Source: an uncultured Prevotellaceae bacterium (GTDB lineage Bacteria; Bacteroidota; Bacteroidia; Bacteroidales; Bacteroidaceae). From it: 46,725 nucleotides of DNA. Below, piece after piece: positions 856 to 46,622 of this stretch (position 1 is its first letter; each line of letters begins with the position of its first letter). The translations under genes and the position numbers were made by a program. Below the pieces are notes generated by a model that worked only from the letters and a program-made list of their open reading frames with translations, was not told the origin of the DNA and did not search any database. The stretch is from the NCBI GenBank assembly GCA_900320565.1, contig ONSR01000005.1:1-46725 (forward strand). Direction: 5' to 3'.

Positions 856-962
856 TTCCCTTTTGGGGCGTTTATAATTCCCCTATAGGGCGTTGCTCAC
901 TCCCCTATAGGGCGTTGCTCATTCCCCTATAGGGCGTTGCTCACTCCCCTATAGGGCGTTGG
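856..962 (+). repeat. 22-bp palindromic repeat array A (CCCTATAGGG class)
   Basis: Four exact cores CCCTATAGGG start at 881, 903, 925 and 947, a strict 22-bp step. A decayed unit (CCCTTTTGGGG) precedes them at about 859, also in register. The 12-base linkers read CGTTGCTCACTC or CGTTGCTCATTC. The array lies in the divergent gap between dacB (-) and the beta-helix gene (+), upstream of both promoters. It has no coding potential and is not CRISPR, because the linker is constant. The 76-bp element follows directly at 964. Confidence 0.95.
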
Positions 963-963
963 C

Positions 964-1039
964 TCTTCCTCCGTCGCGAGTGGAAACTCGCTCCCCTTTG
1001 TGGGGCCGAAGCCACATTCAGTGGCTTCTCCGGAGCATA
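964..1039 (+). repeat. 76-bp three-hairpin element, copy 1
   Basis: This stretch is identical to 46627-46702. It holds three consecutive inverted repeats: GCGAG/CTCGC around TGGAAA, CCCC/GGGG around TTTGT, and GAAGCCAC/GTGGCTTC around ATTCA, then the palindrome CTCCGGAG. Both copies follow a CCCTATAGGG array in the same orientation. It could be a REP/MITE-like repeat or a structured RNA segment; the sequence does not decide. Confidence 0.9.
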
Positions 1040-1128
1040 AAGGGCTTGTTTTCTTACAATGTGTTACAAAATGGAGGAAAAATATGAGAATTTTTCTTCA
1101 AAACAATAAGTAATTAAACAAAACTTCC

Positions 1129-1136
1129 TATTTTTG
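1129..1136 (+). promoter_or_regulatory. Promoter -7 element of the beta-helix gene
   Basis: TATTTTTG followed by CC matches TAnnTTTG, 34 bases before the ATG at 1171. No clear TTTG is seen at -33, only a T-run near 1091. Confidence 0.55.
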
Positions 1137-1170
1137 CCAACAACAAACGCTTATACATTATATATATTAT

Positions 1171-4017
1171 ATGAAAAAGGCCAAAATTCTCCTTAGCGTC
1201 GGCATGACCATCGTTATGCTCGCACTCTCGGCCGCAGAGTTCGACGGTTTTTACTTCTGGAAGAACGGTTCTTACACCAAGTTCGACCTCACCGAAATAC
1301 TCTTCGCAGACGACAAGATAACCATCGGCGACAACACTTTCGACGTGAGTGAAGTGGACAGCATCACCTTCAAAAAACCCGATGAAACCGCCGAAATTGT
1401 GACAGACACCCTGTTTATCACCTACGACGGACAGCAGGCAACGGTCACTCCGGAGAACGTGGCTGGCATCACCAGCGAGGTGAATGGTGCTGCAGTCACT
1501 CTTACGAATGCCAACGAGGACCGCGAGATGTGTTTCATCCTCAGCGGAGAAAGCACCGAGGGCAGTTTCACATACAACGGTACATTCAAGGCTTGCATCC
1601 GACTGGCTGGCCTGAGCCTGAAGAGCACTACAGGTGCGGCACTCGACATCAAGTGCGGCAAACGCATCGCCCTCGAGCTGCTCGAGGGGACGGAGAACTA
1701 TCTGGAGGACGCTCCAGACAGCCTCGGACAGAAAGCAGCCCTGTATTGTAAGGGACATCTCGAGGTCAGCAAAGGCGGCTCTCTGACAGTGAAAGGCAAC
1801 TACACGCACGCTATCAAGACGAAGGAATATATGCTCGTGAAGAGCACGACTGGCAGCATCAACGTCGTCGGCGCTGAAGGCGACGGCATCCATGCTGGTC
1901 AGTACTTCAAGATGAACGGCGGCTCGGTCACAGTTAGCGGTGTGAAGGGCGACGGCATTCAGGGCGAGGCAACTCAGGAAGGCGATGACTTCGACGGACA
2001 AGTCATCCTGCGTGGAGGCACGCTCAACGTTTCTGTCACCGAAAGAGATGTGGCCGCCATCAAGTGCGACAGCCTGATAAACATCTCCGACGGTAACATC
2101 ACACTCACCACGACTGGCGACGGCAACAAAGGCCTCAAGAGTAAGGACGAAATCCTCATCAAAGGGGGAGAAATCTCTATTACCCAGAGCGGTAAGTACA
2201 TCGTGGAGAACAACGACCCGGGCTATGTGGTCGGCATCAAGGCAAGCGGCAACCTCGACATCAGCGGCGGCACAATCGTCATCAACAATACTGCCGAAGC
2301 AGGCAAAGGCATCAGTGCCGACGGCGACCTCAACATCATTGAAGACGAAACGTCGCCCACCATCAACATCAAGGCAAACGGCTCCGGCGCTGCCCTCGAC
2401 CTGTCGAGAAACGTGGAGGTCGATGATGATGAAGGTGGCGACGGCGGCGGCGACGACCCCGATAACCCGGAGACTGTCTATCGCATCTGTGTAGCACTCA
2501 GCAGCACAACCAGCCAGTACTGGAAAGACGTCGTATATCTCTACAACTCGACTGGTACCAGGATTGCCCAGCTGACCAACAACATCACCGTTCAGGCTAC
2601 AGGTCAGACCACAAGGACCTTCTATTATTATGACTTCGACGAAGCCCCCGACGGTCAGTTCTACTTTGCGAGCGACGATTACACCCGTCAAGGTGGCGGC
2701 GGTCCTGGCGGTGGCGGCGGCGGACAAACCTATACGATTCGCACCTCGACAGTCGCCGGACCGACCGACACGAACCCCTCTGTCTATTACTACATCAATG
2801 TGTCGAACCCCACCAGAAGCGGCTCGGTCTATACGTTCACCGTTACTGACTACACAACTCGCTATAAAGACGGCACCATCACAGGCAGCGGCTCCGTAAC
2901 ACCCTCCAGCGGAAAGTTCGCAACTGCCGCAGGTATCAAGGGCGACGGCAACATCACCATCGGTGGCGGAACCATTATCATCAACAACACCGGCGCTGCT
3001 GCGAAGGGTATCTCTTGTGACAAAGTGCTCACCACAACTGGCGGAAACCTGACCATCACCAACAGCGGAACAGGCACCGGAACCACCAGCAGCTACTCGA
3101 CAGCCAAGGGGCTGACCTCCGACGGCAGTATTGACCTGCAAGGCGGAACCATCTCCATCACGATGACTGGTCAGGGAGGCAAAGGCATCAAGAGTGACGG
3201 GACGCTCGTCATCGGCAAGAGCGACACAGAAGGACCTACGCTTACCGTCAGCACGACGGGTGCCAAGTATCTCAGCACATCGTCGGCCAAAGCTATTAAA
3301 GCCACAAGTACCATCACGATAAACGGTGGCGAAATGGTCGTCACAACTGGTCAGAATGGTGCAGAAGGCCTGGAGAGCAAACTGAAGTCGAACGCCTCGA
3401 TTGTCTTCAAAGGCGGCAAGCACTACTTCAAATGCTATGATGATTGCATCAACACGGCTGGAGCAATTAAATTCGAGGGCGGTATCGTCGTCTGCTACGG
3501 CACTGGAAACGATGCCATCGACAGTAACTACGGACAAAGCGGCGCCATCCAAATCGGCAATGGCACTGTGCTGAGTTACTCTGCAGCCGGTGGTCCGGAA
3601 GAAGGCTTCGACTGCGACAACAACTCCTACATACAGATAACAGGCTACGGCATCGCTATCAGCGGCGGCGGTTCGCAAGGCGGCGGTGGCGGCTGGGGCG
3701 GTTGGGGTGGCTCCTCAAGCGGTATAGGAAGTGCCGTTCAGGGCTACAGTCTCAGCACATCCAGCATCAGTTATGCAGCGAATCGCTACTACACGTTGGC
3801 CGATGCAAGCGGCAACAACCTCGTCACCTACTCGGTGGAAGGCAGCTTCAGCAGCAGCCTGTCACTCTTCACGGCTACCGGTATGACGAAAGGCAGCACA
3901 TATACCCTCAAATATAATACCTCAAAGCCTGCTGATGCCACGACCGAATGGCATGGCATCTACCTGGGAAGTTCAGCCACGGGTACTACCCAAGTGCTGA
4001 GCTTCACAGCACAGTAA
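1171..4017 (+). CDS. Secreted carbohydrate-binding beta-helix protein (Cthe_2159 / DUF4353-like)
   Basis: 948 residues. The N-terminus is a signal peptide (MKKAKILLSVGMTIVMLALSAAE). Residues about 25-75 carry the short VDSITF-type segment common at the start of Bacteroidetes surface proteins. From about residue 90 there are many short repeats such as GDGIHAG, GDGIQGE, GNKGLKSKDEILI and KGIKSDG, each about one rung of a parallel beta-helix. This is the pattern of the Cthe_2159 family, described as polysaccharide-binding. Around residues 417-432 and 507-519 lie Gly/Asp-rich and Gly-rich linkers, which bracket an Ig-like insertion (about 434-575). The beta-helix then resumes. A third Gly/Trp-rich stretch (about 830-850) precedes a small C-terminal beta domain. 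The stop lies one base from the convergent downstream gene. The ligand is unknown. Confidence 0.75.
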   Translation: MKKAKILLSVGMTIVMLALSAAEFDGFYFWKNGSYTKFDLTEILFADDKITIGDNTFDVSEVDSITFKKPDETAEIVTDTLFITYDGQQATVTPENVAGITSEVNGAAVTLTNANEDREMCFILSGESTEGSFTYNGTFKACIRLAGLSLKSTTGAALDIKCGKRIALELLEGTENYLEDAPDSLGQKAALYCKGHLEVSKGGSLTVKGNYTHAIKTKEYMLVKSTTGSINVVGAEGDGIHAGQYFKMNGGSVTVSGVKGDGIQGEATQEGDDFDGQVILRGGTLNVSVTERDVAAIKCDSLINISDGNITLTTTGDGNKGLKSKDEILIKGGEISITQSGKYIVENNDPGYVVGIKASGNLDISGGTIVINNTAEAGKGISADGDLNIIEDETSPTINIKANGSGAALDLSRNVEVDDDEGGDGGGDDPDNPETVYRICVALSSTTSQYWKDVVYLYNSTGTRIAQLTNNITVQATGQTTRTFYYYDFDEAPDGQFYFASDDYTRQGGGGPGGGGGGQTYTIRTSTVAGPTDTNPSVYYYINVSNPTRSGSVYTFTVTDYTTRYKDGTITGSGSVTPSSGKFATAAGIKGDGNITIGGGTIIINNTGAAAKGISCDKVLTTTGGNLTITNSGTGTGTTSSYSTAKGLTSDGSIDLQGGTISITMTGQGGKGIKSDGTLVIGKSDTEGPTLTVSTTGAKYLSTSSAKAIKATSTITINGGEMVVTTGQNGAEGLESKLKSNASIVFKGGKHYFKCYDDCINTAGAIKFEGGIVVCYGTGNDAIDSNYGQSGAIQIGNGTVLSYSAAGGPEEGFDCDNNSYIQITGYGIAISGGGSQGGGGGWGGWGGSSSGIGSAVQGYSLSTSSISYAANRYYTLADASGNNLVTYSVEGSFSSSLSLFTATGMTKGSTYTLKYNTSKPADATTEWHGIYLGSSATGTTQVLSFTAQ

Positions 4018-4018
4018 A

Positions 4019-5524
4019 TTATTTCCGACGGTATAGCCGATAAGTTATGAACGCGTGCTCCGGCGTATAAACACGTTCGATGAGACTGTTCATGTAGCCC
4101 AAGCTCCACAGGAATTGCAACGGGTGTAGGATGAATTCATATCGGCGTGCATCCGAGGCCTCTTGTATCAGTTCATAGTCTCGCGTCAGGTCAGGATGGA
4201 ATGAGCCATAGTAGATGGGCTCTTCCGTCTTCATAATGAGATACTTTGCCTGACGCGACTCCAGATAAGCTGTTTGCTCTGTGACAAGTTCCTCTACATA
4301 AGCATTTGGCGTAACGAAGAACTTGATGGGAGGCAAGCAGTCGGTGAGCGTATAGATACCCGTATCGTATGACCTAATCGTCAGCACTTGTTTGTTGGGA
4401 TCTTTGTCGGCATTCACCGTTTCAGCCAAAGGCAAAACGGCATGAGGCAGGTTGCCCGTGAGCAAGGTCATGAGGTTGTAGTTCGTAGCAACTGCAAGCA
4501 ACGTAAGCACAACTGCTCCGAAAGCGATGACGGCACGCGATTGGACTCTGCGGACAAAGTATATCACGAGTGGAGCAAATACGAAGATGATGAGGAAGTA
4601 GTACAGATAGACCTTGAAGAGAACGAAGGTCAGCAGTTCGGCTCCCCAGCAGCATGCTATAGCCAACTTCACTTCGCGAGACGTCCGAACAAGTAAAACA
4701 ACACTTACAAGCAATACCCAGCCAGCCAGTTTAAGTGGCATGAACCACCACGCTTCAGGCGAACCAACGCTGCCAGCATCGACATATTTGAAGATGTTGA
4801 AGTAGAAGTAAGAATAGTAAAGGTCCTGAATGTTGCCGTGCAGGATGAAGTACAGCAATACACCTATCGTTACTATTGCCAATCCCACTATGACCCATGC
4901 CAGACATCGCAACAGAAGATTCATCTCTCGACGCTGCCATGCCAGTATGCAAAGGGCAACGAGTGCTCCCATACACATAGCCAGCAGCGTGAACTTCGTC
5001 CAGAAGATGGCAGCCATGAGTGCACCAATGATAACCGACTCCTTGATGTCAGGCAACTCATTCAGCTTAGCATATCGCAGTGTCTTGTACAGGATGTAAA
5101 GCAAGATAGGCAATGACAACTCCTCGACAGTATCGCCATAACACATGAAGTCTGTGGTATAGGTCAGTATGCCAACGATGCAAGTTGTAATCAGGCTTAT
5201 GCCGTGTCCGGCAAACATACGCATTGTCTTGTAAGAGAAGACAAGGAACATGAAGCAGCAGAGTATCTCGAGTAGATAGATGCCAATAAATGTCTTGGAT
5301 GACAAAGCTGCAGCCCATTCATGGATAAAGAAGAGCAAAGGACCCTTCTGGTCGTGCACATCAGTGTACAGCAACTTGCCAGAGAGCATGCTCTTGCCTA
5401 TAGCCATGAACCAATTGACATCGTCGTGGGGTTGAAGAGGGTAAATCCACGAACAGCAACTGAATAGTGTGATGAGGATTACTGCCAGCAGGCAAAGTAG
5501 CAGAGGTGTTTTACAGTCTTTCAT
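4019..5524 (-). CDS. Polytopic membrane glycosyltransferase, GT-C fold (PMT/ArnT-like)
   Basis: 501 residues with about ten hydrophobic segments. Near the N-terminus, after the first membrane segment, is PHDDVNWFMAIGKSMLSGK followed by LYTDVHDQKGPLLF. This acidic first loop and the D.KGP motif are typical of GT39/GT-C enzymes that use a lipid-linked sugar donor at the periplasmic face. The start overlaps the last 14 bases of the upstream GT2 gene, so the two are translated together. The natural reading is that GT2 makes a polyprenyl-phosphate sugar and this protein transfers it. Substrate and acceptor cannot be read from the sequence. The C-terminal 100 residues are soluble. The stop codon is one base from the convergent beta-helix gene, so there is no room for a separate terminator. 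Confidence 0.7.
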   Translation of the reverse strand: MKDCKTPLLLCLLAVILITLFSCCSWIYPLQPHDDVNWFMAIGKSMLSGKLLYTDVHDQKGPLLFFIHEWAAALSSKTFIGIYLLEILCCFMFLVFSYKTMRMFAGHGISLITTCIVGILTYTTDFMCYGDTVEELSLPILLYILYKTLRYAKLNELPDIKESVIIGALMAAIFWTKFTLLAMCMGALVALCILAWQRREMNLLLRCLAWVIVGLAIVTIGVLLYFILHGNIQDLYYSYFYFNIFKYVDAGSVGSPEAWWFMPLKLAGWVLLVSVVLLVRTSREVKLAIACCWGAELLTFVLFKVYLYYFLIIFVFAPLVIYFVRRVQSRAVIAFGAVVLTLLAVATNYNLMTLLTGNLPHAVLPLAETVNADKDPNKQVLTIRSYDTGIYTLTDCLPPIKFFVTPNAYVEELVTEQTAYLESRQAKYLIMKTEEPIYYGSFHPDLTRDYELIQEASDARRYEFILHPLQFLWSLGYMNSLIERVYTPEHAFITYRLYRRK

Positions 5525-7486: not shown

Positions 7487-7487
7487 G

Positions 7488-10400
7488 TTATGATGAGTGT
7501 GTTATGAACTTAGATAAGAGTTGTTCGCCTTCCTCGATGGTGATGCCGCGACGCTGGCAATAGTCGCGGAGCTGTTCGCGGTCGATGCGGCCTACAGGGA
7601 AGTATTGAGCTTCGGGGTGGTGGATGAACAGGCCACACACGGAGGTCGAGGGCTGAATGCTGTAGTGGTCGGTCAGCGTGACGTCCAGTTTCTGTTCAGC
7701 CTGCAGCCTGTCGAAGACGATGCGCTTAAGCGAATGGTCCGGGCAAGTGGCGTAGCCGAAGGCAACTCGCAAAGGGCGGACCCCCTCTAACTCCCCCTTA
7801 AAGGGGGAGAACTCCCTCCCTTTAAGGGAGGGTTGGGGTGGGTCTGTCAGTCTTTCTGCAGCAGCTTCGGCCAGACGAGCACAGAGGGCATGTGTCATCA
7901 GCCGTTCTTCTTCGTTGGCCGATTCTTGCAGCGGTCGGGCTGTCACCAGGAAGAGTCCGATGGGGGAGGGTTGTTGCTCGTCGAAGTAATCTGCGAGACA
8001 ACGGTAATGATACGCAGCAGACTGGCTGCGAAGCATGGGCAGGAGTTGTCCGTCAGCACAGAGCACGATATCATTCCCCCTTCTTGTCGCCGCCTCTTCC
8101 TTATATAAAGCTTTCACCTCAAGCAGGCCTTTTTGTAGGAGCGACTCGAGGAATTGCTTACCTTTCTTTAATGTCTTTTCCGCCTCAGGGTTGACCAAGA
8201 GCTGAGGCAGTGTCTCGCCTTTGAAGCCCCAGAACAGCAGGAACATCCGCCAGTCGATGAGGGAAAGGAGATCTTCGCATTGAACATTGAACATTGAACA
8301 TTGAACATTAACGGATTCGCTGTTCTGCCAATGGTATTGTGGACGTAATAGGTTGGCTTCCTCATAGGGTGTGAGGGGTGCATGATGCTCGTTATATGCA
8401 TCACGTATCTGCCTCTGTTCGTCCTTTATTTGCTCGATGAAATCGGTCTTTTTTGAAGTTAATCGCTTTGCCAGCACTGATGTTTGCGAGGCATCTCCAC
8501 CATAAATGACCAGACCATCATAGAGGGGTGCTAACTTCACTGCAGTGTGAACAGCCGATGTTGTTGCTCCGCCTACCAGAATAGGTACGTCGAGATGCTC
8601 TTCTTGGAATGTTTGGCAGAGTTTCTCCATCTCCTTTAATGATGGTGTAATCAAGCCGCTGATGCCGACAAGGACTGGTTTATGTTCTTTTGTGGCTTCC
8701 AGAATTGTCTCGCACGGCACCATGACACCGAGGTCGACCACTTCGAAACCATTGCACGCAAGCACGATGCCGACGATGTTCTTGCCGATATCATGCACAT
8801 CGCCGTTGGCTGTGGCGAGTACTACACAAGGCTTCAGGCTGCCTCCCGTTGCTTTGTCCGAGGCATCGATGTATGGTTGCAGAATAGCCACAGCATCCTT
8901 CATGACCTGAGCCGAGCGGACGACTTGTGGCAGGAACATCTTTCCTTCGCCAAACAAGACACCGATGTGCTCCATGGCCTGCATGAGTGGTCCCTCGATG
9001 ACCTTAATAGGCTGACCATATTTAGCAAGTGCCTCGGGCACATCCTCCACGAGATGACTGCTGTCGCCCTTTGTCAAAGCGAGTTGAAGACGCTGTTCAA
9101 TGGGGAGACCCGGGGCGAGGGGCATGGGGTCAGGGGCAAGAGTTTTGTCTGTTGAAGCCTCATTCTTTAGTTCTTCACTCAAGGCGAGCAGCCTGTCGGT
9201 GGCTTCGTCGTCGGTGTTCATGATGACGTCCTCGACTGCGCGACGCAGGTTTGGGTCGATTTCATCGTATATTTGGAGCATCGACGGATTGACGATGGCC
9301 ATATCGAGACCTGCGCGGATGGCGTGGTAGAGGAACACCGAGTGCATCGCTTCCCTTACCTTATTATTACCACGGAAAGCGAAGGAGAGGTTGCTCACAC
9401 CGCCACTTGTCTTTGCGAAGGGCAGGTTCTGCTTGATCCATTCTACGGCGCGGATGAAATCGACGGCATAGGCCTGATGCTCTTTAATGCCCGTTCCGAC
9501 CGAAAGAATATTGACGTCGAAGATGATGTCTTGTGGCGGGAAACCGATGGAAGTCAAGAGGTTGTAGGCACGACGAGCAATGGCAATCTTGCGTTCGTAT
9601 GTCGTGGCTTGTCCTTCTTCGTCGAAAGCCATCACGACAACTGCGGCACCCAAGCGTCTCAATTCAAGGGCTTTACCAAGGAAATCCTGCTCTCCGGCCT
9701 TGAGACTTATGGAGTTGACGATGCATTTGCCTTGCGCGTTCTTCAATCCGGCCAGAACTGTCTGCCAGTCGCTGCTGTCGATCATCAGGACGGCCTTGCC
9801 CACGGCAGGTTCTCCGCTGATGTGCCGGCAGAAAGTCTGCATTTCGAGTTGGCTGTCGAGCATGGCATCGTCCATGTTGATATCGATGACCGTTGCCCCG
9901 CCCTCTATTTGGTTTCGTGCCACGGAGAGTGCTTCGCCGTATTGCTTTTCAGCGATGAGACGTGCGAATTTGCGTGAGCCAGCGACGTTTGTACGCTCCC
10001 CGACGTTCGTGAAGTTCTGTGTTTCTCGGTCGATGAGCAATGGCTCGAGACCTGAGACACGCAGTTTGTTGTCTGCAGCAGGAATGGTTCTGGGCTTGAT
10101 GTCGCGCAATGCGTCAGCAATCGCCCTGATGTGTTGTTCGTCAGTTCCGCAGCAGCCACCGGCGATATTGATGAGTCCGGCTTCTGCCATCTTGCGGAGA
10201 TGCGAGGCGGTAAAATTGGGAAGTTCCTCATATTCACCCATTTGGTTGGGCAATCCGGCGTTCGGATAGATGGAAATCGGCAGCGGAACATTGGCCGAGA
10301 GCTGTTCCATGAAGGGTCGCAAATCAGTGACGCCGAAGGAACAGTTCAGTCCGAAGCTGAGCAAGTAGGGATAGTGGCTGACGCTTGTATAGAAGGCCCA

Positions 10401-11197: not shown

Positions 11198-11284
11198 CGA
11201 CAAAAAGTTGAAAAGTTGAAAAGTTGTAAGGTTAAAAAGCAGAATGGAAAATGAAAAATGATGGGATGCCGCCAGGAGGGTGTG

Positions 11285-11440
11285 TAATTCCCCTATAGGG
11301 CGCCACTCATTCCCCTATAGGGCGTTATTCATTCCCCTATAGGGCGCCAGTCATTCCCCTATAGGGCGTTTGCTCTTCCTCTATAGGGCGTTTGCCAGAG
11401 AATACTAATGCCTTTTTCAAAGACCTATACCTCTTTGAAG
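11285..11440 (+). repeat. 22-bp palindromic repeat array B (CCCTATAGGG class)
   Basis: Exact cores start at 11291, 11313, 11335 and 11357, and a variant CTCTATAGGG at 11379. Linkers are CGCCACTCATTC, CGTTATTCATTC, CGCCAGTCATTC and CGTTTGCTCTTC. Two steps further, at 11423 and still in register, ACCTATACCT forms the loop of an 8-bp hairpin (TTCAAAGA 11416-11423 / TCTTTGAA 11432-11439). The array fills the divergent gap between metH (-) and nadB (+). Confidence 0.93.
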
Positions 11441-15067: not shown

Positions 15068-15095
15068 AACCCAATAAAAACGGGGCATTTGTAAA

Positions 15096-15160
15096 GACCT
15101 CTCGTCGAGTTGTCAAAGACGGCACGTCGAATAGAGAAACTCGGCACGTCGAATTTTTAT
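15096..15160 (+). repeat. 22-bp palindromic repeat array G (CGGCACGTCG class)
   Basis: Cores CGGCACGTCG start at 15120 and 15142, a 22-bp step. A decayed unit at 15098 (CCTCTCGTCG with linker AGTTGTCAAAGA) is in the same register. The array lies in the 97-bp convergent gap between the small protein gene (+) and the radical SAM gene (-). The last core is followed by AATTTTTATT, so it might also help termination. Confidence 0.8.
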
Positions 15161-15957: not shown

Positions 15958-16069
15958 CGCAATAAAATTAAAAAATAAAAATGAAAAATTAAAAATTGAA
16001 TGCTATGGGCAAAGAATTAAAAAAACATAATTATGAACGATGAACTATGTATTATGAGCTAAAAAGTCG

Positions 16070-16724: not shown

Positions 16725-16823
16725 CGACGTGTGGCGATAAAAAATGCGACGCGTCGCATTGGCCAATGCGACGCGTCGAAAATGCCAACGCGACGCGTCG
16801 CGTTTGAAGACGCGACACGTTGC
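16725..16823 (+). repeat. 22-bp palindromic repeat array I (CGACGCGTCG class)
   Basis: Cores start at 16725 (CGACGTGTGG), 16747, 16769 and 16791 (all CGACGCGTCG) and 16813 (CGACACGTTG), exactly 22 bp apart. Linkers are CATTGGCCAATG, AAAATGCCAACG and CGTTTGAAGACG. The array occupies almost the whole 111-bp convergent gap between the DUF4294 gene (+) and cysS (-). Confidence 0.93.
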
Positions 16824-16832: not shown

Positions 16833-18332
16833 TTACTTGTTCAGGGTCCAAGAGAAGCCGTCCTTCGTGTCCTTCACCTCAAAGCCGAGGGCAGCGAGGT
16901 CGTCGCGAATCTTGTCGCTCAAGGCCCAGTTCTTCTCTGCTTTTGCTGCCTGACGTTGTTCGAGGAGCATGTTCACGACGGCTCCGAAAGCCTCTTCGCG
17001 TGCCTTATTGCTTACGCCAGTGTCCTGCTTGAGACCGAGGATGTCGGTTGTGAACGTCTCCATGAGTTGGAGCAATGCCTGTGCCACTTCGGCAGTGATG
17101 CTGGCCTTTTTGTCCGTCAGCGTGTTGATGACGCGGCAAGCATCGAACAGGTGGCTGATGACGATGGGCGAGTTCAGGTCGTCGTTCATCGCGTCGTAGA
17201 GCTTCGTGCGAAGTTCATCGACGTACTTCATCTCGACCTGCGGCTGACCCTTCACCTTTTGTCCCTCCTGGAGGCGGCGCAGGTTCTTCAGTCCGTCCAT
17301 CAGTCGGGCCAGTCCCTTCTCTGCAGCCTGAAGTGCCTCGTTGCCGAAGTCCACCGTCGAACGATAGTGTGCCTGTAGGATGAAGAAGCGGATGGTCATC
17401 GGCGTGTAGGCCTGGGAGAGCAGCGGATGGTCGCCCGTGAAGAACTGCGGCAGGGTGATGAAGTTATTGTACGATTTGCCCATCTTCTTGCCGTCGATGG
17501 TAATCATGTTGTTGTGCATCCAGTAGTGGACCATCTGGTCACCCTGACTGGCGACAGCTTGAGCTATTTCGCATTCGTGGTGCGGGAAGATGAGGTCCAT
17601 GCCTCCGCCGTGTATGTCGAAGTGATCCCCCAAGTACTTACGTCCCATTGCAGTGCACTCGCAGTGCCATCCGGGGAATCCATCGCTCCAAGGCGACGGC
17701 CAGCGCATGATATGTTCGGGTTGTGCAGCTTTCCAAAGGGCGAAGTCCGCCTGGTTCTTCTTCTCGCCCACGCCGGCCAGGTCGCGGCTCGCGTCCTTGA
17801 TGTTCTCAAGGTCTCTGCCCGAGAGAATGCCCCAGCGGTGGTCCTTGTTGTACTTCTCGATGTCGAAGTAGACGCTGCCGTTCGACTCGTAGGCATAGCC
17901 GTTGTCGAGAATCTGGCGCACCAGGGCCTGTTGCTCGATGATGTGGCCCGTGGCGTGCGGCTCGATGCTTGGCGGCAAGCACCCCAGCGCGTCCATCGCC
18001 TCGTGGAAGCGATTTGTGTAGTATTGCGCTACTTCCATCGGCTCGAGTTGTTCCAGTCGGGCTTTCTTAGCAATCTTGTCCTCGCCCTCATCAGCATCGT
18101 GCTCCAAGTGGCCTACGTCCGTAATGTTGCGAACATAGCGCACCTTGTAGCCAATATGCTGCAGGTAGCGGAAAAGGAGGTCGAACGTGATGGCCGGTCT
18201 GGCGTGTCCGAGGTGGGCATCACCATAGACAGTCGGACCGCAGACATACATTCCGACGCGCCCCGGATTGAGCGGCTTGAAGAGTTCCTTCTGCCGGCTC
18301 AGGGTATTATAAATAAGGAGTGGTTGTTCCAT
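16833..18332 (-). CDS. cysS: Cysteinyl-tRNA synthetase
   Basis: 499 residues from the ATG at 18332; an open frame reaches 18545 but its extension is the antisense of the upstream gene. The enzyme charges tRNA-Cys. Class I signatures are present: the HIGH-type motif inside [20 protein letters not shown] and the KMSKS-type motif as [14 protein letters not shown]. Zinc ligands are the Cys of MYVCGPT, the Cys of GWHCECTAM and FPHHECE. The C-terminal DALR-like helical region ends with [17 protein letters not shown]. It starts 20 bases after the acidic protein gene and is probably co-transcribed with it. Converges on the DUF4294 gene across array I. Confidence 0.96.
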
Positions 18333-18351
18333 GTTGTAGTGTTTTGTGGCT

Positions 18352-18675
18352 TTAACTTTCAATTGACTCTCCGTACTCCAGTTCGCCGTCCACAACCCAA
18401 CGAAGGTCTTCAGGGTCGAACTCGCCCATCTTGTCCTTCTTGGCTTGCTTTGCGACATACTTTGCCACTTCCTCCACGTCGATGTCAATGTCTTCGTCGC
18501 CATTATGCTTGTCGAGTAAATCGACATAATACTCGCCGATGACATCGATGAAGTAGTAGAGTTCTTCCTCCGTGAACTTGTCCTTGAGTTCCTGCGGCAG
18601 GTAGTTCTGAATGTATTCGACCGTCAAGCGGTCGTCCTCAGCATCGTTGAGGAGGTCTTCTTCAAAGGTACTCAT
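18352..18675 (-). CDS. Small acidic conserved hypothetical protein
   Basis: 107 residues, very acidic (runs such as [10 protein letters not shown] and [11 protein letters not shown]), with no signal peptide or membrane segment and a predicted mostly helical body. I do not recognise a domain. It starts MSTFEEDLL and lies between trxA and cysS on the same strand, 19 bases before cysS, which suggests a housekeeping cytoplasmic role. A heptamer repeat (GATTAAA) lies just upstream of its start. Codon use resembles its neighbours, so it looks like a real gene. Confidence 0.7.
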
Positions 18676-18679: not shown

Positions 18680-18712
18680 GTTTAGGATTAAAGATTAAAG
18701 ATTAAGGAATAA
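18680..18712. repeat. Heptamer tandem repeat before the acidic protein gene
   Basis: GATTAAA, GATTAAA, GATTAAG then GAATAAGG: a 7-bp-period A/T-rich repeat in the 47-bp gap between trxA and the acidic protein gene. Confidence 0.8.
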
Positions 18713-18722
18713 GGGATGGGAA

Positions 18723-25925: not shown

Positions 25926-25945
25926 CGCTGAACGGCACATAATTT

Positions 25946-26028
25946 TATCCCCTATAGGGGAATGCTCAACGCCCTATAGGGGAATGACAAACGCCCTATA
26001 GGGGAATGAGCAACGCCCTATAGGGGAT
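25946..26028 (-). repeat. 22-bp palindromic repeat array C (CCCTATAGGG class)
   Basis: Exact cores start at 25950, 25972, 25994 and 26016, 22 bp apart. The plus strand reads GAATGCTCAACG, GAATGACAAACG and GAATGAGCAACG between cores, so the array is inverted relative to arrays A, B and F. It fills most of the 135-bp convergent gap between the NlpC/P60-CapA gene (+) and fbp (-). Confidence 0.94.
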
Positions 26029-26060
26029 GAAAAGATGCTTTAGCGGGGCAGGGAAATCCC

Positions 26061-28055
26061 TTACTTCTTCGTGTTCTCCTTGATGATGCCGTGGCGGTAG
26101 GCGTGGAGCAGGCTGCGCAGTTCTTTTATCTGTTCCTGAATCTGGCGGCCCTTGTCGGTGTCGCGCACGCGAATGCGTCGGCCCATCATCTCCACGATTT
26201 GCTTGCTGCTCTTGATGTCAGTGCCGCTGGCTACGGCCTCTGCGGTGCTGGTGAACGGCTCGTGCTGGATGAGTTCGAAGCCGCGGCTGTGATAGACGAG
26301 GGTGTAGCCTGCGATGCCCGTCGTGTGGTGGTAGGACTTCGAGAAACCTCCGTCGATGACCATCAGCATGCCGTCGGCCTTGACGGGGTTCTCGCCTTGG
26401 CTGGCATGGACAGGCACGTGGCCGTTGATGATGTGAGGGCAGACCCCCTCTAACTCCCCCGTAAGGGGGAGAACTCCGAAGTGCTGGAGGATGCGGCTGC
26501 AAACGGCAGGGTTTTCTCTGAGCTGATAGTAAGCGCCTTTCTCTTCGTGGTGCGTAGCGGGTTCGGCAAGGAAGTAACGCTCGAACGTCGCCATGCGGTT
26601 CTTGTCGAAGAGTGGGCTGTCGGGACCGCACCACAGGTACCAGAAGAAATCCCGTACGGCTCCCTTCCGGCTTCCCCCGATGGAGGAGGGATAAGCGGTG
26701 CGCATCTTGAACTCGATTTGCTGCATGAGTTCGCGTCCCTGGTATGTCTTGCCGTCAATCTCGACCTGCCGCAAGCTGCCGTCGGCATTGAGGGGAACGG
26801 AGGCATGGAAGAGGAGGTTGCTGTTGCAAACCAGGTACATCGAGCCATGACTGAAGAGCAGGCGGACGTGCTTCTGCAGTTTCTCGCTGATGCGGAAGGA
26901 GTGGTGGAGCCGTTTCATCAGGTCCTGCTCCTCGGCCGTCAGCCTGTATGGGTCGCTCGGGTCGAGGGTGGGGAAGTGGGTGTCGAGCAGCGGATAGTCT
27001 TTCTCTTCGAAGCGATAGGTGCCGCGGCTCAGGTCGATGTTCTCCAAAGTACCTCGGCGGTCGATGTTCCACTCGGGATGTGCATTGATTAACTGCCCTT
27101 CGAGTTTGAACTGAATGACGGAAATGGCCTTGTGCATCTGTGCGATGAGTCGCATCCGCTTCTCGTCGCCTTTCACTTCGGCCAGCGTTCCGATGGGCTG
27201 GAACTGCAGGCAGGGGTCGTCGGCATACGTGTCCATGGCAAAGGTGGCCAGCGGCAGGAGGTTGATGCCGTAGCCCTCCTCGAGTGTTGCCAAGTTGGCG
27301 AAGCGCAAGGAGAGGCGCAAGACGATGGCGATGCAGGCATCCTGACCGGCTGCCGCACCCATCCAAAGGGCGTCATGATTGCCCCATTGCAGGTCGAAAT
27401 TGTCGCGCGTGAGCAGGTAATCCATGATGATATGCGCCCCTGGCCCGCGGTCGAAGATGTCGCCAAGGATGTGCAGCTGGTCGATGCTCAACTTGTGGAT
27501 GACGTTACAGATAGCGACGATGAAGTTTCGGGCCTGTCCTATCTGCACGATTGTCTCGACAATCCTTTGCACATAAGCATCTTTATCTTCGTCGTTCGGA
27601 CTCTCGTGGAGGAGTTCCTCGATGATGTAGGCGAACTGTTTCGGCAGGGCTTTGCGGACCTTGCTGCGGGTGTATTTGCTGCTCACGGACTGGCAGACCT
27701 GTATGAGTTGCAGCAGGGTTCGGGCGTAGAAGCCGGAGAGGTCTTCGTCCGTGCCCTCCTCAATCATCTCGAGCCGCTTTTCGGGATAGTAGATGAGGGT
27801 GCAGAGGTCGCGCATCTCTTGCTCCGGGAGCGATTCGTCGAACAGGTCGTGGACCTTCCTCTTGATGTTTCCGCTGGCATTCCTGAGAATATGCAGGAAG
27901 GCTTCATGCTCGCCATGAATGTCGGCGACGAAGTGTTCGGTACCTTTCGGAAGGCTGAGAATTGCCTCAAGATTTATGATTTCCGTGCTTGCGCTCTCAC
28001 TATTGGGGAACGTTCTGGCAAGCAGCTGGAGCAGACGCATATCAGGATAGTTCAT
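26061..28055 (-). CDS. fbp: Fructose-1,6-bisphosphatase, class III, with in-frame repeat insertion
   Basis: 664 residues, as expected for the class III (Firmicutes/Bacteroidetes) enzyme. It dephosphorylates fructose-1,6-bisphosphate in gluconeogenesis. The calcineurin-like metal-binding motifs are present: FVADIHGEHEAF near residue 42, ILGDIFDRGPGAH near 195 and LQWGNHDALWMG near 220. Near the C-terminus, HIINGHVPV supplies the distal His ligands. Just before it the sequence GVLPLTGELEGVCP is longer than expected. It coincides with a G/C-rich repeat at 26440-26477 that resembles the metH insertions. The start codon lies inside a heptamer repeat shared with the rsmA stop. Downstream it converges on array C. 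Confidence 0.93.
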   Translation of the reverse strand: MNYPDMRLLQLLARTFPNSESASTEIINLEAILSLPKGTEHFVADIHGEHEAFLHILRNASGNIKRKVHDLFDESLPEQEMRDLCTLIYYPEKRLEMIEEGTDEDLSGFYARTLLQLIQVCQSVSSKYTRSKVRKALPKQFAYIIEELLHESPNDEDKDAYVQRIVETIVQIGQARNFIVAICNVIHKLSIDQLHILGDIFDRGPGAHIIMDYLLTRDNFDLQWGNHDALWMGAAAGQDACIAIVLRLSLRFANLATLEEGYGINLLPLATFAMDTYADDPCLQFQPIGTLAEVKGDEKRMRLIAQMHKAISVIQFKLEGQLINAHPEWNIDRRGTLENIDLSRGTYRFEEKDYPLLDTHFPTLDPSDPYRLTAEEQDLMKRLHHSFRISEKLQKHVRLLFSHGSMYLVCNSNLLFHASVPLNADGSLRQVEIDGKTYQGRELMQQIEFKMRTAYPSSIGGSRKGAVRDFFWYLWCGPDSPLFDKNRMATFERYFLAEPATHHEEKGAYYQLRENPAVCSRILQHFGVLPLTGELEGVCPHIINGHVPVHASQGENPVKADGMLMVIDGGFSKSYHHTTGIAGYTLVYHSRGFELIQHEPFTSTAEAVASGTDIKSSKQIVEMMGRRIRVRDTDKGRQIQEQIKELRSLLHAYRHGIIKENTKK
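26440..26477 (-). mobile_element. Half-element of the MITE-like palindrome inside fbp
   Basis: The plus strand reads CAGACCCCCTCTAACTCCC, then a hairpin with CCCCC/GGGGG arms, then GAGAACTCC. This matches the left half of the metH element at 7777-7846 almost base for base. It is read in frame as LTGELEGVC just before the conserved HIINGHVPV of fbp. Confidence 0.8.
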
Positions 28056-28081
28056 AATTCATAGTTCATAGTTCATAGTTC
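28051..28081 (-). repeat. Heptamer repeat forming the rsmA stop and fbp start
   Basis: On the minus strand the unit ATGAACT is repeated four times (one as ATGAATT). The rsmA stop TGA (28075-28073) and the fbp ATG (28055) both lie in it. Other ATGs occur at 28062, 28069 and 28076, each in a different frame. Confidence 0.9.
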
Positions 28082-29937: not shown

Positions 29938-29949
29938 CATATCTCAAAA

Positions 29950-30092
29950 CACGGCACGCCATCTTTACCAACTCGGCGTGCCATCTTTGTCAACTCGGCG
30001 TGCCATCTTTGCCAACTCGACACGTCGAATTGCTCAACTCGACACGTCGAATTGCTCAACTCGGCACGTCGCGTTTTGAGCAGAGGCACGGC
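29950..30092 (+). repeat. 22-bp palindromic repeat array H (CGGCGTGCC / CGACACGTCG class)
   Basis: Cores start at 29952 (CGGCACGCC), 29974 and 29996 (CGGCGTGCC), 30018 and 30040 (CGACACGTCG), 30062 (CGGCACGTCG) and a decayed one at 30084, all exactly 22 bp apart. Linkers are TCTTTACCAACT, TCTTTGTCAACT, TCTTTGCCAACT and AATTGCTCAACT. Core types are ordered along the array. It occupies half of the 276-bp gap between the flippase-like gene and sppA; the rest holds the sppA promoter. Confidence 0.94.
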
Positions 30093-31987: not shown

Positions 31988-32080
31988 GAATTCACAATTC
32001 ACAATTCATAATTCATAATTAGGCTACGCCAAGAGACAGAGCGCAAGGAACTATGAATTATGAATTAACAATTATGAATT
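31988..32080. repeat. Heptamer repeats forming an inverted repeat between sppA and lpxK
   Basis: TTCACAA twice and TTCATAA twice (7-bp period) are followed about 30 bases later by their complement. AATTCATAATTCAT (32003-32016) pairs with ATGAATTATGAATT (32053-32066), a perfect 14-bp stem with a 36-base loop. No T-run follows, so it is not a canonical terminator. Confidence 0.85.
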
Positions 32081-35127: not shown

Positions 35128-35144
35128 AACACCGACCTTACTGG

Positions 35145-35165
35145 CGCGGCACGCCGCGTTTTTTT
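35145..35165 (+). terminator. Intrinsic terminator after thiL
   Basis: Stem CGCGG/CCGCG around loop CACG, followed directly by seven T residues. Its core CGGCACGCCG is of the array-H type and is centred 21 bp from the first unit of array D. Confidence 0.8.
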
Positions 35166-35166
35166 C

Positions 35167-35292
35167 CCCCTATAGAGGAATGACCAACGCCCTATAGGGG
35201 AATGACCAACGCCCTATAGGGGAATGACCAACGCCCTATAGGGGAATGAGTAACGCCCTATAGGGGAATTTTTTGCCCCCTCTGTTGGGGGT
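35167..35292 (-). repeat. 22-bp palindromic repeat array D (CCCTATAGGG class)
   Basis: Cores start at 35168 (CCCTATAGAG), 35190, 35212, 35234 and 35256 (all CCCTATAGGG), 22 bp apart. Plus-strand linkers read GAATGACCAACG and GAATGAGTAACG. A decayed inverted repeat CCCCC(TCTGTT)GGGGG follows at about 35276-35291. The thiL terminator adjoins its left end. The 277-bp gap otherwise holds only the promoter of the next gene. Confidence 0.94.
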
Positions 35293-38998: not shown

Positions 38999-39433
38999 AT
39001 GAAAGTACAGATAATCAATCGCAGCCATCATCCGCTGCCACAGTATGCCACGCCGCAGTCGGCAGGCGTCGATCTTCGTGCGAATATAGAGTCGCCCATC
39101 GAATTGAGGCCAATGGAACGACGCCTTGTTCCTACAGGGCTCTTCATGGCCTTGCCTCCTGGTTTCGAGGCACAGGTGCGTCCTCGCAGCGGCTTGGCCA
39201 TCAAGCATGGCATCACCGTGCTGAATACTCCGGGCACCATTGATGCCGACTATCGTGGCGAAGTCTGTGTCATCCTGGTCAACCTCTCGGACGAACCCTT
39301 CCTCATTGCCGACGGCGAACGCATCGCACAAATGGTGATAGCGCGTCATGAACAGGCTGAGTGGGAACCCGTGGAGGTGTTGTCGGAAACGGAACGCGGT
39401 GCTGGTGGCTTCGGCCATAGCGGTACGAAATAA
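38999..39433 (+). CDS. dut: dUTP diphosphatase
   Basis: 144 residues from the ATG at 38999 ([16 protein letters not shown]); the open frame upstream is an out-of-frame reading of dgt. It hydrolyses dUTP to dUMP, keeping uracil out of DNA. All five trimeric dUTPase motifs are present: [44 protein letters not shown] and [11 protein letters not shown]. The last is the mobile C-terminal arm. The stop codon is followed within three bases by array E. Confidence 0.96.
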
Positions 39434-39434
39434 A

Positions 39435-39515
39435 CGCCCTATAGGGGAATGCTCAACGCCCTATAGGGGAATGCTTAACGCCCTATAGGGGAATGACCAA
39501 CGCCCTATAGGGGAG
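39435..39515 (-). repeat. 22-bp palindromic repeat array E (CCCTATAGGG class)
   Basis: Exact cores start at 39437, 39459, 39481 and 39503, 22 bp apart. Plus-strand linkers are GAATGCTCAACG, GAATGCTTAACG and GAATGACCAACG. It begins immediately after the dut stop codon and lies upstream of the TPR gene. Confidence 0.95.
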
Positions 39516-39576
39516 TGAATGGCGTCGGCTGGAGCATATTCAACTTCCCTTGCAAGGAAACAATAACCAACTGATA

Positions 39577-41991: not shown

Positions 41992-42005
41992 TACTCTTAG
42001 CAGAT

Positions 42006-43328: not shown

Positions 43329-43336
43329 TTTCTGCT

Positions 43337-45241
43337 ATGACACAGTATCAGGAGATACTCAGGAAGTACTGGGGCTATGATGATTTCCGAGGCATCCAGC
43401 GTGATGTCATTGAGAGCATAGCTGAGGGGCGCGACACACTTTGCCTTATGCCGACGGGTGGGGGAAAGAGTATAACGTTCCAAGTGCCTGCCCTTGCGAT
43501 GAAGGGCGTCTGCATTGTCTTCACGCCGCTTATCTCCTTGATGAAGGACCAGGTTGAGGCTTTGCGCAAACGCAACATAAGGGCTGCTTACATCACCGGT
43601 TATATGTCGCGCGAAGAGGTGTTGGGAATCTTGGACAGCGCCATATTCGATGCCTACAAGTTCCTGTATGTCTCGCCCGAAAGGCTTGAGAGCAAGATGT
43701 TTGTCAATAAGCTGAGTCGCATGAAGGTCAGCTTTATCACGGTCGATGAGGCACACTGCATCTGCCAATGGGGCTATGATTTCCGCCCGTCTTATCTGGA
43801 GATATCGAAGATTCGAGAGTTCTTCCCCGACCGTCCCATCCTTGCGCTTACGGCTACGGCCACTCCTAAGGTGGTAAGGGACATACAGCAGAGGTTGCAG
43901 TTCCGCCAGGAGAATGTTCTGCAGATGAGTTTTGCGCGAAGCAACCTGGCATATATCGTCCGTCGGGAAGACGATATGCTGCAGGGCATCGTGCGTGCTT
44001 TGGAGCGCATTCCCGGCAGTTGCATCGTCTATACCCGCAGCCGGAGGAAGTGTAAGGAACTGGCCGAACAACTCAATGCATTAGGCTTCTCTGCCACTTT
44101 CTACCATGCGGGTTTGAATGCCGCACAGAAGAACGAGCGTCAAGAGCGCTGGCGGCGTGACGAGTTCCGCATTATGGTGGCTACCAACGCCTTTGGTATG
44201 GGCATCGACAAGCCCGATGTGCGTCTGGTGCTTCATGCAGATATACCGGATTCCATAGAGGCCTACTTTCAGGAGGCCGGCCGTGCGGGTCGAGACGGGA
44301 AGAAGGCTTATGCTATTCTGCTGACGTTGGGGAAGGAGCGACAGATAGTGGCGCGTCGGCTGTCGCACCAGTTTCCTGAACTCGATTATGTGCGTAATGC
44401 TTACGAGTTGCTGTGCTGCTTTCTGGGCATCGCCGAGGGGGAGGGCATGAATGTCATGCGTGAGTTCAACCTCGAGAAGTTCTGCAGCACCTTTGGCTAT
44501 TACCCGACTACGCTCGTCAGTGCGCTCGACTTGCTGGACAAGGCTGGCTACATTGAGTATCGCGACGAGGAGGAAGCGTCCAGCCGACTGCGTATAGACG
44601 TCACTCGAGGCGAGCTTTTCGGTGCGCTCTTTCCGTCGGAGGAGCGGCTTGTCCTCTCTGTGTTGCGTCATTATGGCGGCATCTTCGTCGATTATGTCTA
44701 TATAGATGAGGGTTTGCTGAGCAGCGATACGGGTCTTTCTGTTGACGACATTTACCAGACCTTCATTCGTCTGTCGAAGCTTCACCTCATTTCGTTTATT
44801 CCTCGAAAGCATTTGCCCTGCGTCACCTTCCGCACTCGTCGTGTCGATAAGGAGAAGGTGTATCTTCCTCGACTTGTTTATGAGGAGCGACGGAGGCATT
44901 ATGAGGAGCGCATGGGTGCAATGTTGAAGTATGCCGAGGAGGAAAGCAATTGTTGTCGCAGCCGCATGCTGTTGCGCTATTTCGGTGAGGAAGCGGACCA
45001 CGATTGCGGCATCTGCGATGTCTGCATCCGCAGGAATGAGGGTTCGTCGCAGCCGGCAGAAGGTAAGGAGGCTCTGAGAAATCACATCCTCAGCCAGCTT
45101 CGGGAGGGTCCTCGCAATGCTTATGACCTAGACCTTGCCGGCTTCAATCCTGCACTCCTTGAGGAGGTCATCGATGGGATGCGCGCCAGTGGTGAGATTG
45201 CCTTTGACGGGCCTTTGCTGGTCATCGCCAAGCCTTCCTGA
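43337..45241 (+). CDS. recQ: ATP-dependent DNA helicase RecQ
   Basis: 634 residues. It unwinds DNA 3' to 5' in recombination and repair. Motif 0 (YWGYDDFRGIQRDVI), Walker A PTGGGKS at about 39-45, Walker B DEAH at 137-140 with the aromatic loop HCICQWGYDFRPSY, and motif VI (FQEAGRAGRDG) are all present. A zinc-binding four-cysteine cluster follows (about 539-563, CCRSRMLLRYFG then DCGICDVC). The winged-helix (RQC) region is at about 400-520, but it is short and there is no recognisable HRDC domain at the end. It begins eight bases after the EnvC-like gene. Its last 20 bases overlap the convergent unknown gene. Confidence 0.93.
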   Translation: MTQYQEILRKYWGYDDFRGIQRDVIESIAEGRDTLCLMPTGGGKSITFQVPALAMKGVCIVFTPLISLMKDQVEALRKRNIRAAYITGYMSREEVLGILDSAIFDAYKFLYVSPERLESKMFVNKLSRMKVSFITVDEAHCICQWGYDFRPSYLEISKIREFFPDRPILALTATATPKVVRDIQQRLQFRQENVLQMSFARSNLAYIVRREDDMLQGIVRALERIPGSCIVYTRSRRKCKELAEQLNALGFSATFYHAGLNAAQKNERQERWRRDEFRIMVATNAFGMGIDKPDVRLVLHADIPDSIEAYFQEAGRAGRDGKKAYAILLTLGKERQIVARRLSHQFPELDYVRNAYELLCCFLGIAEGEGMNVMREFNLEKFCSTFGYYPTTLVSALDLLDKAGYIEYRDEEEASSRLRIDVTRGELFGALFPSEERLVLSVLRHYGGIFVDYVYIDEGLLSSDTGLSVDDIYQTFIRLSKLHLISFIPRKHLPCVTFRTRRVDKEKVYLPRLVYEERRRHYEERMGAMLKYAEEESNCCRSRMLLRYFGEEADHDCGICDVCIRRNEGSSQPAEGKEALRNHILSQLREGPRNAYDLDLAGFNPALLEEVIDGMRASGEIAFDGPLLVIAKPS

Positions 45242-46466
45242 TGTCCAGGTGCATGTTCCAGTTTGATTCGGTGGCTGTGTAGATGCCTGCTTCGTGGAGG
45301 ATGGTCCAGAGCGGGCGGTGGCAGTTTGCGGCGCAGATGCGTTTATCCCTGACCCATAGTGTGACGAGTGTTGTGATGTCCGACGGTTTCTGTCCTCTTG
45401 CAAGCAGTAGGAATTCGCGGGCATCGTCGGTGTTTCCGTAGAAGATGGGTGCGAGCTGCAGAGCCAGATCGCGTTCCCTTTTGTCGAGAAGGCTTGCGGA
45501 GTCGTCGTCGGACAGTCCCAGTTGACGGCGCAGACACTGTTGCAGGACAAGGGCCGACTGCAGCATCTGGAGTTTGCGGCGTGGTATGTTCAGGTAGATG
45601 AGGCGGTGCATGAGTTCGCCGAACAGGTCTTTTTGGTAGCAGAGGTCGGCCGGAAGTTTGAGGAGGCAGGCTTCGATGGTTTCCAGTTGCTGCATGATGG
45701 TCTGTTGCCAAAGTTTGATGCTTGTCAACTGGGCTTTGTGGAGGGAGCACCACTGGCGGTGCATCTGTGCGGCCTCTGTGCTTCGGCAGAGTTCGGGAAA
45801 GTGTATCTCCTGAAATTCTACGGTGCGTTTCTTGCTGCCCAGGGCGGAGAGCGTGTGCCGGAATTGTGGTGCGAGGGCTCGGACGTCCTGGTCGGCGTGG
45901 CTGCTTACCAGTCGTCGTGTCTGTTCGAGCTGTTCCTGAGTTTCTCGGCTGACGTCCCATCTGGCGAGCAGCAGGATGCGGTTCAGGTGCTCCAGGAGTG
46001 TCTGCTTGCTGATGCTTCCGTTGTGCGTGAGTTCGGTCATCGCTACTTTGAGGCTGACGTCGAGTCGCCGGTCGTCGTCGGAACTGTTCAGCATCGGAGC
46101 ACCCGTCCATTTCCAGTCGGCCCAGATGTCTGGAGCATCGGCGGAAGTGCTGTCGGGGGTAGGGTAGTTTCCTCTGACGCGAACGGTGTAGCAGCGTCCT
46201 TCCTGGTCGGTCTCCGTCACCTGTGTCACGAGGACCGAAGAGCTATCGTGCCTCATCATGGCGAGCACCCGTTCCAGGTCGAAGCGGCTGACGACGCCGC
46301 GATATGTGGTGCCCCTGAGGGCGCGGACGATGATGCCGAAGTCTTGTGTCTGTTCCGTGACGAGCAGCATCTCGGGTTTCTGCTGCTCCAGTTCTGTCAT
46401 CACGACAGCGATGTCAGCATCCGTGCAGTCGTACTGCAGGCCGGTGATTTGAATAAGCGTTTCCAT
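45222..46466 (-). CDS. Hypothetical protein
   Basis: 414 residues from the ATG at 46466; a TTG at 46484 would add six residues. I do not recognise a family with confidence. The first 110 residues are a likely alpha/beta domain with segments ALRGTTYRGVVSRFDLERV and CYTVRVRGNYP. It may be a distant HIRAN-like or small SH3-like module, which is only a guess. Residues about 140-420 are mostly helical, rich in Gln, Leu and Arg, with paired cysteines but no zinc motif I can support. No signal peptide or membrane segment. It overlaps recQ tail to tail by 20 bases. Upstream are array F and copy 2 of the 76-bp element. Confidence 0.6.
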   Translation of the reverse strand: METLIQITGLQYDCTDADIAVVMTELEQQKPEMLLVTEQTQDFGIIVRALRGTTYRGVVSRFDLERVLAMMRHDSSSVLVTQVTETDQEGRCYTVRVRGNYPTPDSTSADAPDIWADWKWTGAPMLNSSDDDRRLDVSLKVAMTELTHNGSISKQTLLEHLNRILLLARWDVSRETQEQLEQTRRLVSSHADQDVRALAPQFRHTLSALGSKKRTVEFQEIHFPELCRSTEAAQMHRQWCSLHKAQLTSIKLWQQTIMQQLETIEACLLKLPADLCYQKDLFGELMHRLIYLNIPRRKLQMLQSALVLQQCLRRQLGLSDDDSASLLDKRERDLALQLAPIFYGNTDDAREFLLLARGQKPSDITTLVTLWVRDKRICAANCHRPLWTILHEAGIYTATESNWNMHLDIRKAWR

Positions 46467-46517
46467 AGTTCGATGTAAATGCAAGAGTGTTTCTTAAAGA
46501 AGTAGTGTTTTTTGAAT

Positions 46518-46622
46518 AAAGAGGTATAGGGCGTTGTTTACTCCCCTATAGGGCGTTGCTCATTCCCCTATAGGGGAGTTTGCATTCCCCTATAGGGCGT
46601 TGGCCATTCCCCTATAGGGCGT
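46518..46622 (+). repeat. 22-bp palindromic repeat array F (CCCTATAGGG class)
   Basis: Cores start at 46522 (AGGTATAGGG), 46544, 46566, 46588 and 46610 (all CCCTATAGGG), 22 bp apart. Linkers are CGTTGTTTACTC, CGTTGCTCATTC, GGAGTTTGCATTC-like and CGTTGGCCATTC. The first decayed unit shares AAAGAGGTATAGG with the reverse strand of the hairpin in array B. Lies upstream of the unknown gene (-). Confidence 0.94.

Follow-up and report, generated by a model that had tools for sequence, protein, structure and literature searches.

Arrays of mostly palindromic 22-bp units, mainly at gene 3′ sides, in an uncultured Prevotellaceae bacterium and its relatives

Short repeats of several described families lie between bacterial genes. 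Here we compare them with tandem arrays of mostly palindromic units that step at 22 bp in contig ONSR01000005.1 of an uncultured Prevotellaceae bacterium (assembly GCA_900320565.1). The window, that is, the whole stretch of DNA analyzed, is 46,725 nucleotides long and is one contig of a 2.63-Mb assembly that is 89% complete. This genome is labelled G000; a sister genome, G087, is 80% complete.

Plasmid iterons are direct repeats near 22 bp that form helically phased protein sites, with one origin per replicon; the present arrays, in contrast, lie at hundreds of gene ends. The DNA uptake sequences of Neisseriaceae are short words that recur across the genome at gene ends, in dialects that differ by species, and they do not form tandem 22-bp arrays. 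Repetitive extragenic palindromes (REPs) and bacterial interspersed mosaic elements (BIMEs) bind gyrase, and BIMEs occur at gene 3′ ends; they are mosaics of units, a likeness to the present arrays. As far as the consulted excerpts of the sources go, REPs and BIMEs with REP-associated tyrosine transposases (RAYTs) also resemble the arrays as extragenic palindromes on gene 3′ sides with a species-specific class, and they have GTAG/CGTC tags and associated RAYT genes (PMC3733652, PMC6006769). The present arrays differ in that G000 and G087 have no match to the RAYT domain Y1_Tnp, few main-class units are isolated, and a fixed 22-bp register runs across unrelated palindromes.

The nearest published element that we found is BrickBuilt, a miniature inverted-repeat transposable element or minisatellite of Porphyromonas gingivalis (PMC4596501). 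In the consulted excerpts of that report, it resembles the arrays as an intergenic Bacteroidales element of tandem 23-nt units, close to two helical turns, with a leader and a tail, strain-variable copy number and predicted stem-loops. The same excerpts describe a single repeat family at 19 loci, with as many as 22.8 units and with terminal inverted repeats in leader and tail. Unlike BrickBuilt, the present arrays number dozens in 13% of the genome and comprise many unrelated classes in one register. A tail was seen behind part of the CCCTATAGGG arrays only; a leader common to the arrays was not noticed, and terminal inverted repeats were not systematically searched for.

Other known elements were also considered. 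A CRISPR array was rejected because of the period of 22 and the near-uniform 12-base linkers, where a CRISPR array would have unique spacers; cas genes were not searched for. A phage or plasmid origin was rejected because the exact pattern had no match in viral contigs and array A with its tail had no blastn match in plasmids or phages. No known structured RNA or tRNA was found in the window, which had 0 Rfam matches at the gathering threshold. A full-text search of the openly licensed literature gave no description of these arrays. We rate them as categorically new relative to the families tested and the open-access literature; a sceptic could place them, as an outlying form, among the extragenic palindromic repeats.

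Period, placement and register of the arrays

A preliminary description of the window reported nine arrays (A to I; Table 1), and all were found where it placed them, with a period of 22. Six belong to the CCCTATAGGG class, each with exactly four perfect cores. The scans covered 349,225 bases of G000 (the window plus another 20 stretches, in all 13% of the genome and about 88% coding), with array thresholds chosen by ourselves and gene calls from a simple script. The strict scan gave 45 arrays at lag 22 and 25 at lag 44; lags 10, 14 and 21 had one array each, and the remaining lags from 10 to 60 had none. With a looser scan from which microsatellites were removed, there were 54 arrays at lag 22 and one across the other lags from 14 to 39. 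Dyad symmetry exceeded the 95% null level in 42 of these 54, and most arrays had 4–5 units. The pattern CCCTATAGGG-N12-CCCTATAGGG was present at 113 places genome-wide, and the reversed control pattern at 0. The arrays are far more widespread than first reported, and the period of 22 holds genome-wide.

Instead of the three core classes proposed earlier, clustering of the 54 arrays at a lenient cut gave eight clusters (28, 14, 5, 2, 2, 1, 1 and 1 arrays), the largest being CCCTATAGGG. The single linker plan claimed for all arrays, a shared TTGnnCA, held as a tendency in the CCCTATAGGG arrays, 9/28 of which repeat it at 22 bp (null mean 0.77, maximum 4); it was weak in the other classes, which were within the null range (5/26; null mean 0.75, maximum 5). 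In main-class linkers the centre is most variable and the two bases flanking the core on either side are of fixed types: 65 of 79 can be read as CG...TC, with the four central bases varying most.

Exact CCCTATAGGG occurs 96 times in the 349 kb, with 0 copies within called genes and with neighbours spaced at 22 bp (64) or 44 bp (3). Two of the 96 copies are isolated (1/111 when variants are included), so the main class does not show the single dispersal of units that is typical of REPs. For the rarer classes, motif sets composed after inspecting the arrays gave lone intergenic matches in 4/9 (AATAC), 5/12 (GGCA) and 1/7 (GGTAT) cases, which may be chance or relics.

The 54 arrays were distributed over tandem (29), convergent (14) and divergent (3) gaps and stretch edges (8), with 0 inside called genes. 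The available gaps longer than 60 bp were 78 tandem, 27 convergent and 28 divergent. Arrays per gap were more frequent in convergent (p = 0.001) and in tandem gaps (p = 0.009) than in divergent ones; 13 of the 27 convergent gaps were occupied, one of them by two arrays. In tandem gaps, 25 of the 29 arrays were closer to the upstream stop than to the downstream start (p = 0.0001), with medians of 27 and 136 bp.

Units of unrelated classes share one register. Once duplicates were removed, the same post hoc motif sets gave 22 pairs of adjacent units from different classes, some of them orthologous and not independent (array B in G000 and G027, array I and L230, array G and L072), with dyad centres 22 (16), 44 (4), 21 (1) or 28 bp (1) apart. 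Twenty shuffled motif sets combined gave one pair, and reversed motifs none. Before duplicate removal there were 27 pairs, at 22 (21), 44 (4), 21 (1) and 28 bp (1), four of the 22s being duplicate loci. Array B continues in register from its CCCTATAGGG units to one AATAC unit and one GGTAT unit, 22 bp each. Because neighbours of unrelated classes hold the 22-bp step, the copying of a single unit is not the source of the register. The arrays are not a single-family minisatellite, since unrelated neighbours lie at 22 (16/22) or 44 bp (4/22), and slippage, earlier offered as a reason for the uniformity of the repeats, is not supported as the sole cause.

The shared register would follow from a physical ruler about two helical turns long. 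The idea of two helical turns was already part of the preliminary description and agrees with the genome-wide period of 22 and with the AT-richness of 21-bp arrays, which helical phasing predicts: among non-microsatellite arrays, mean G+C was 0.33 at 21 bp (n = 13, several non-palindromic) and 0.49 at 22 bp (n = 159; p = 6e-5). Constraint on an RNA strand was rejected, since dyad mismatches on the transcribed sense showed no G-U excess (G-T 203 vs. A-C 224, p = 0.33). Compared with column-permuted arrays, the fold z was −2.9 in G000, −0.1 in G102, −0.3 in G031 and −0.5 in G050. The lack of G-U excess, folding that is not common to all classes and the AT-rich 21-bp arrays together favour helical phasing of DNA by a putative protein assembly over RNA structure.

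The same gaps in related genomes

The gaps of the window were compared across 14 relatives. Counting gaps of 60 bp or longer, relatives had an array at 35 of the 45 positions occupied in G000 and at 1 of the 63 that are empty in G000; the 45 include locus A of G087, scored as lacking an array despite three in-register units seen by eye (two degenerate CCCTATAGGG, one of AATAC class), and two-unit arrays in gap 16 of G112 fall below the threshold. Without the length limit, the counts were 35/50 and 1/86. Array position and spacing are kept between species, and the sequence is exchanged.

Behind the FBPase gene, where array E lies in G000, we compared the 19 most similar orthologous loci, G000's own included. 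The detector found an array directly 3′ in 13 of them; G112 had two units by eye, the array of G027 was farther off in the gap, and G136, G124, G032 and G053 had none. The core was CCCTATAGGG in G000, G087 and G112, CGCCGCACGCGG type in G091 and G016, TATCACGTGGG in G052, GTTAACGTGTTACG in G039, GTCACACTAGT in G093 and G054, AAGTACACGTTCTTAT in G037, GGTTAACC in G050 and G024, and a 21-bp GAAAATATATTTTC type in G086. Between G000 and G087, array E kept its cores and differed in the linker centres.

A 22-bp array lay within 330 bp at gap D in 9 of 21 genomes; at a control gap, where G000 has a classic terminator, a 21/22-bp array was present in 4 of 18. G087 has GGCGTGCC units, of GGCACGCC type, at gap D in place of the CGACGCGTCG of G000, and GGCACGCC-type units at gaps B, G and H where G000 has CCCTATAGGG. 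In the relatives' stretches the looser scan gave 40 arrays at lag 22, of which 25 were dyadic, and 17 at the remaining lags, most of these non-dyadic; 3 of the 4 lag-21 arrays were dyadic. The earlier suggestion of an array family with one geometry and diverging cores agrees with these results, as the period is genome-wide and recurs in relatives with other cores.

Classes are shared between loci within several of the genomes. The fraction of within-genome array pairs with similarity of at least 0.6 was 1.00 in G050, 0.76 in G039, 0.67 in G093, 0.55 in G016, 0.43 in G052, 0.33 in G091, 0.28 in G000 and 0.21 in G087. Between genomes it was 0.064 of 7,778 pairs, with 0/600 in the permuted null.

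Possible roles and origins of the arrays

The reading that we prefer, at a probability of roughly 40%, is that the arrays act as modular boundary elements in the DNA, located chiefly at transcription-unit 3′ ends and providing a platform for cooperatively bound proteins. An array is a string of 3–6 units (one relative reaches about 11) of 21–22 bp each, usually with a dyad. The ruler would be a protein, or a set of proteins, bound at every dyad and in contact with the neighbouring ones two turns away on the same helix face. Because geometry and not sequence is kept, we infer a DNA-binding protein family that shares a single oligomer contact while its base specificity changes fast, which would give each species its own vocabulary. 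Protein binding, already proposed in the preliminary description, is itself putative. The assembled complex may then insulate adjacent transcription units from one another, acting as a roadblock to transcription or as a topological barrier, which is the least certain step.

It is also conceivable, if somewhat more tentative, that the arrays embody a sequence-independent geometry code, in which helically phased beads mark conserved transcription-unit boundaries, candidate readers of one protein family share a lattice contact and swap DNA specificity from species to species, and unrelated palindromes can be mixed in register. If the boundary platform is real, abundant gut bacteria would mark gene ends with an undescribed protein lattice, the mark being kept while its letters are rewritten per species. 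The co-change of a genome-wide DNA vocabulary with its readers, and the insulation of transcription units in Bacteroidales, would then become testable.

Several results weigh against a boundary platform. Divergent gaps hold three arrays, A and B among them. Some classes lack a clear dyad (dyad z of 0.43 in G093, −0.36 in G102 and 0.22 in G124), and the dyad register extends weakly into dissimilar flanks (2.66 matched pairs vs. about 2.2 around the register). Class sharing is low in G102 (0.10), G112 (0.10) and G027 (0.07) at the same similarity cut. A genome with more than one class would require more than one protein, and rewriting hundreds of sites at each change of specificity is demanding. 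The difference in terminators described below disappears once in-array hairpins are counted (10/22 vs. 14/26, p = 0.77), and at orthologous gaps a classic terminator was present in 3 of 12 array-less entries and in 10 of 49 others.

Selfish beads similar to REPs and BIMEs are the first alternative. Here a transposase or recombinase would spread the palindromes, targeting gene 3′ ends or existing beads, and the register would result from insertion or recombination at the linker. The classes are indeed dispersed and common to several loci and species, a tail of about 95 bp linked to CCCTATAGGG arrays is near-identical between species, and gene 3′ ends are where BIMEs, too, occur. Y1_Tnp (RAYT, PF01797) genes were found in 11 of the 20 genus genomes searched, and at 5 of 8 such loci in relatives a 21/22-bp array lies less than 1.5 kb off (270–790 bp). 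G000 (89% complete) and G087 (80% complete), the genomes richest in CCCTATAGGG pairs, had 0 matches, so RAYT-driven REPs are unsupported for G000 and left partly standing by the loci near arrays. By eye, other repeats flank the Y1_Tnp genes. The rarity of isolated main-class units and the lack of matches in viral contigs, plasmids and phages also speak against spreading. Orthologous arrays have some end beads in common, as in array B, whose unit order is the same in G000 and G027; this fits persistence in place, and the contrast of 1/63 with 35/45 is unexplained unless target preference is extreme. We consider selfish beads unlikely; if the arrays were such beads, they would be a parasite that inserts by an exact geometric rule.

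Improbable to a greater degree is a string of structure-only terminators, a hairpin series acting on RNA in both directions, with pairing selected while the sequence drifts. The 3′-side placement and the strong folding in G000 fit it. For convergent gaps, counted by strand, a classic terminator lying outside the array was present at 2 of the 22 entries that have an array, against 14 of the 26 that lack one (p = 0.0017). A hairpin with a T-run overlapped the array in 8 of the 22 entries; 12 had no T-run hairpin at all. There is no G-U excess, and arrays of G102, G031 and G050 do not fold above permuted ones. RNA pairing needs no 22-bp register between unrelated units, and an array follows a classic terminator in G087, G052 and G124, by eye. 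The replacement of terminators by arrays has mixed support, being suggestive in G000 and not repeated at orthologous gaps, where no substitution was seen; because of this we prefer the boundary platform to structure-only terminators, as well as to selfish beads and neutral slippage.

Neutral minisatellites, in which slippage copies the unit, hairpin-templated repair makes the palindrome and arrays persist where harmless, fit the near-uniform units within arrays, the differing unit number of array F in the sisters (6 in G000, 4 in G087) and their symmetric changes in several units at gap D, but this explanation is strained and very improbable given one period for all classes, a register held across unrelated classes and other gaps of similar size without arrays (1/63).

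Features of the window and taxonomic reach

Table 1. Arrays, single units, tails and other repeats in the window
Feature	Position	Strand	Remarks
Array A	852..974		CCCTATAGGG class; 4 perfect cores and a decayed first unit; divergent gap
Conserved tail, ~95 bp	967..1060	+	Behind array A
7-bp tandem repeats	8278-8309, 15964-15997, 18684-18714, 28047-28081, 31989-32020, 32048-32080
Array B	11278..11394		CCCTATAGGG class; 4 perfect cores and one CCTCTATAGGG; divergent gap
Single AATAC-class bead (AATACTAAT)	11395..11416		22 bp from last array B unit
Single GGTAT-class bead (CCTATACCT)	11417..11438		22 bp from the AATAC bead before it
Array C	15093..15156		CGGCACGTCG type; 3 units; convergent gap
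Array D	16725..16823		CGACGCGTCG class; convergent gap; adjoins cysteinyl-tRNA synthetase gene (16833-18362)
Array E	25942..26038		CCCTATAGGG class; 4 cores; convergent gap; adjoins FBPase_2 gene (26061-28055)
Array F	29942..30081		Composite of GGCGTGCC and CGACACGTCG units in a single register; tandem gap
Single GGCA-class bead with T-run	35141..35162		21 bp from first array G unit
Array G	35158..35285		CCCTATAGGG class; 4 perfect cores and one degenerate; tandem gap
Array H	39422..39526		CCCTATAGGG class; 4 cores; tandem gap
Array I	46516..46641		CCCTATAGGG class; 4 perfect cores; opens with an in-register GGTAT-type unit
Conserved tail, second copy	46630..46725	+	Truncated by the window edge

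The same tail follows arrays A and I, and it is also present at L005, L007, L017, L027, L036, L055 and overlapping loci. It contains several short dyads and is near-identical across species with protein divergence of up to about 16%. Every sighting was behind a CCCTATAGGG array, and only a subset of that class has the tail; it had no plasmid, phage or Rfam match. At L027, a core after the tail sits 110 bp (5 × 22) from the last array core.

The exact CCCTATAGGG pair was found in 34 public contig stretches: 20 of rumen Bacteroidaceae/Prevotellaceae type, three of other Bacteroidales, four of a Kiritimatiellaeota bin and seven of scattered taxa, some of which may be chance or unrelated. Beyond close relatives the pair is rare: it was absent from two further genus members, from the 38 other family genomes outside the genus (0/38) and from the order genomes (0/39). 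Outside the genus arrays were rarer, with seven at lag 22 in 353 kb of family stretches (one passing the dyad test) and one in 273 kb of order stretches.

In the distant Kiritimatiellaeota bin (L030, L031, L044 and L061), CCCTATAGGG-like palindromes lie at 22-bp steps, and a third in-step unit is visible by eye in some. L147, from another genus of the family, has three 22-bp arrays of GGAAAAAG...CTTTTTCC type in 20 kb; the array habit may reach beyond the genus. At L112–L119, relatives' Y1_Tnp (RAYT-like) genes are flanked by palindromes of their own, such as GCCCTGAAAGGGC, by eye.

G000 has a second repeat habit in the form of 7-bp tandem repeats with varied units (CATTGAA, AAAATTA, AGGATTA, ATAGTTC, AATTCAC and GAATTAT).

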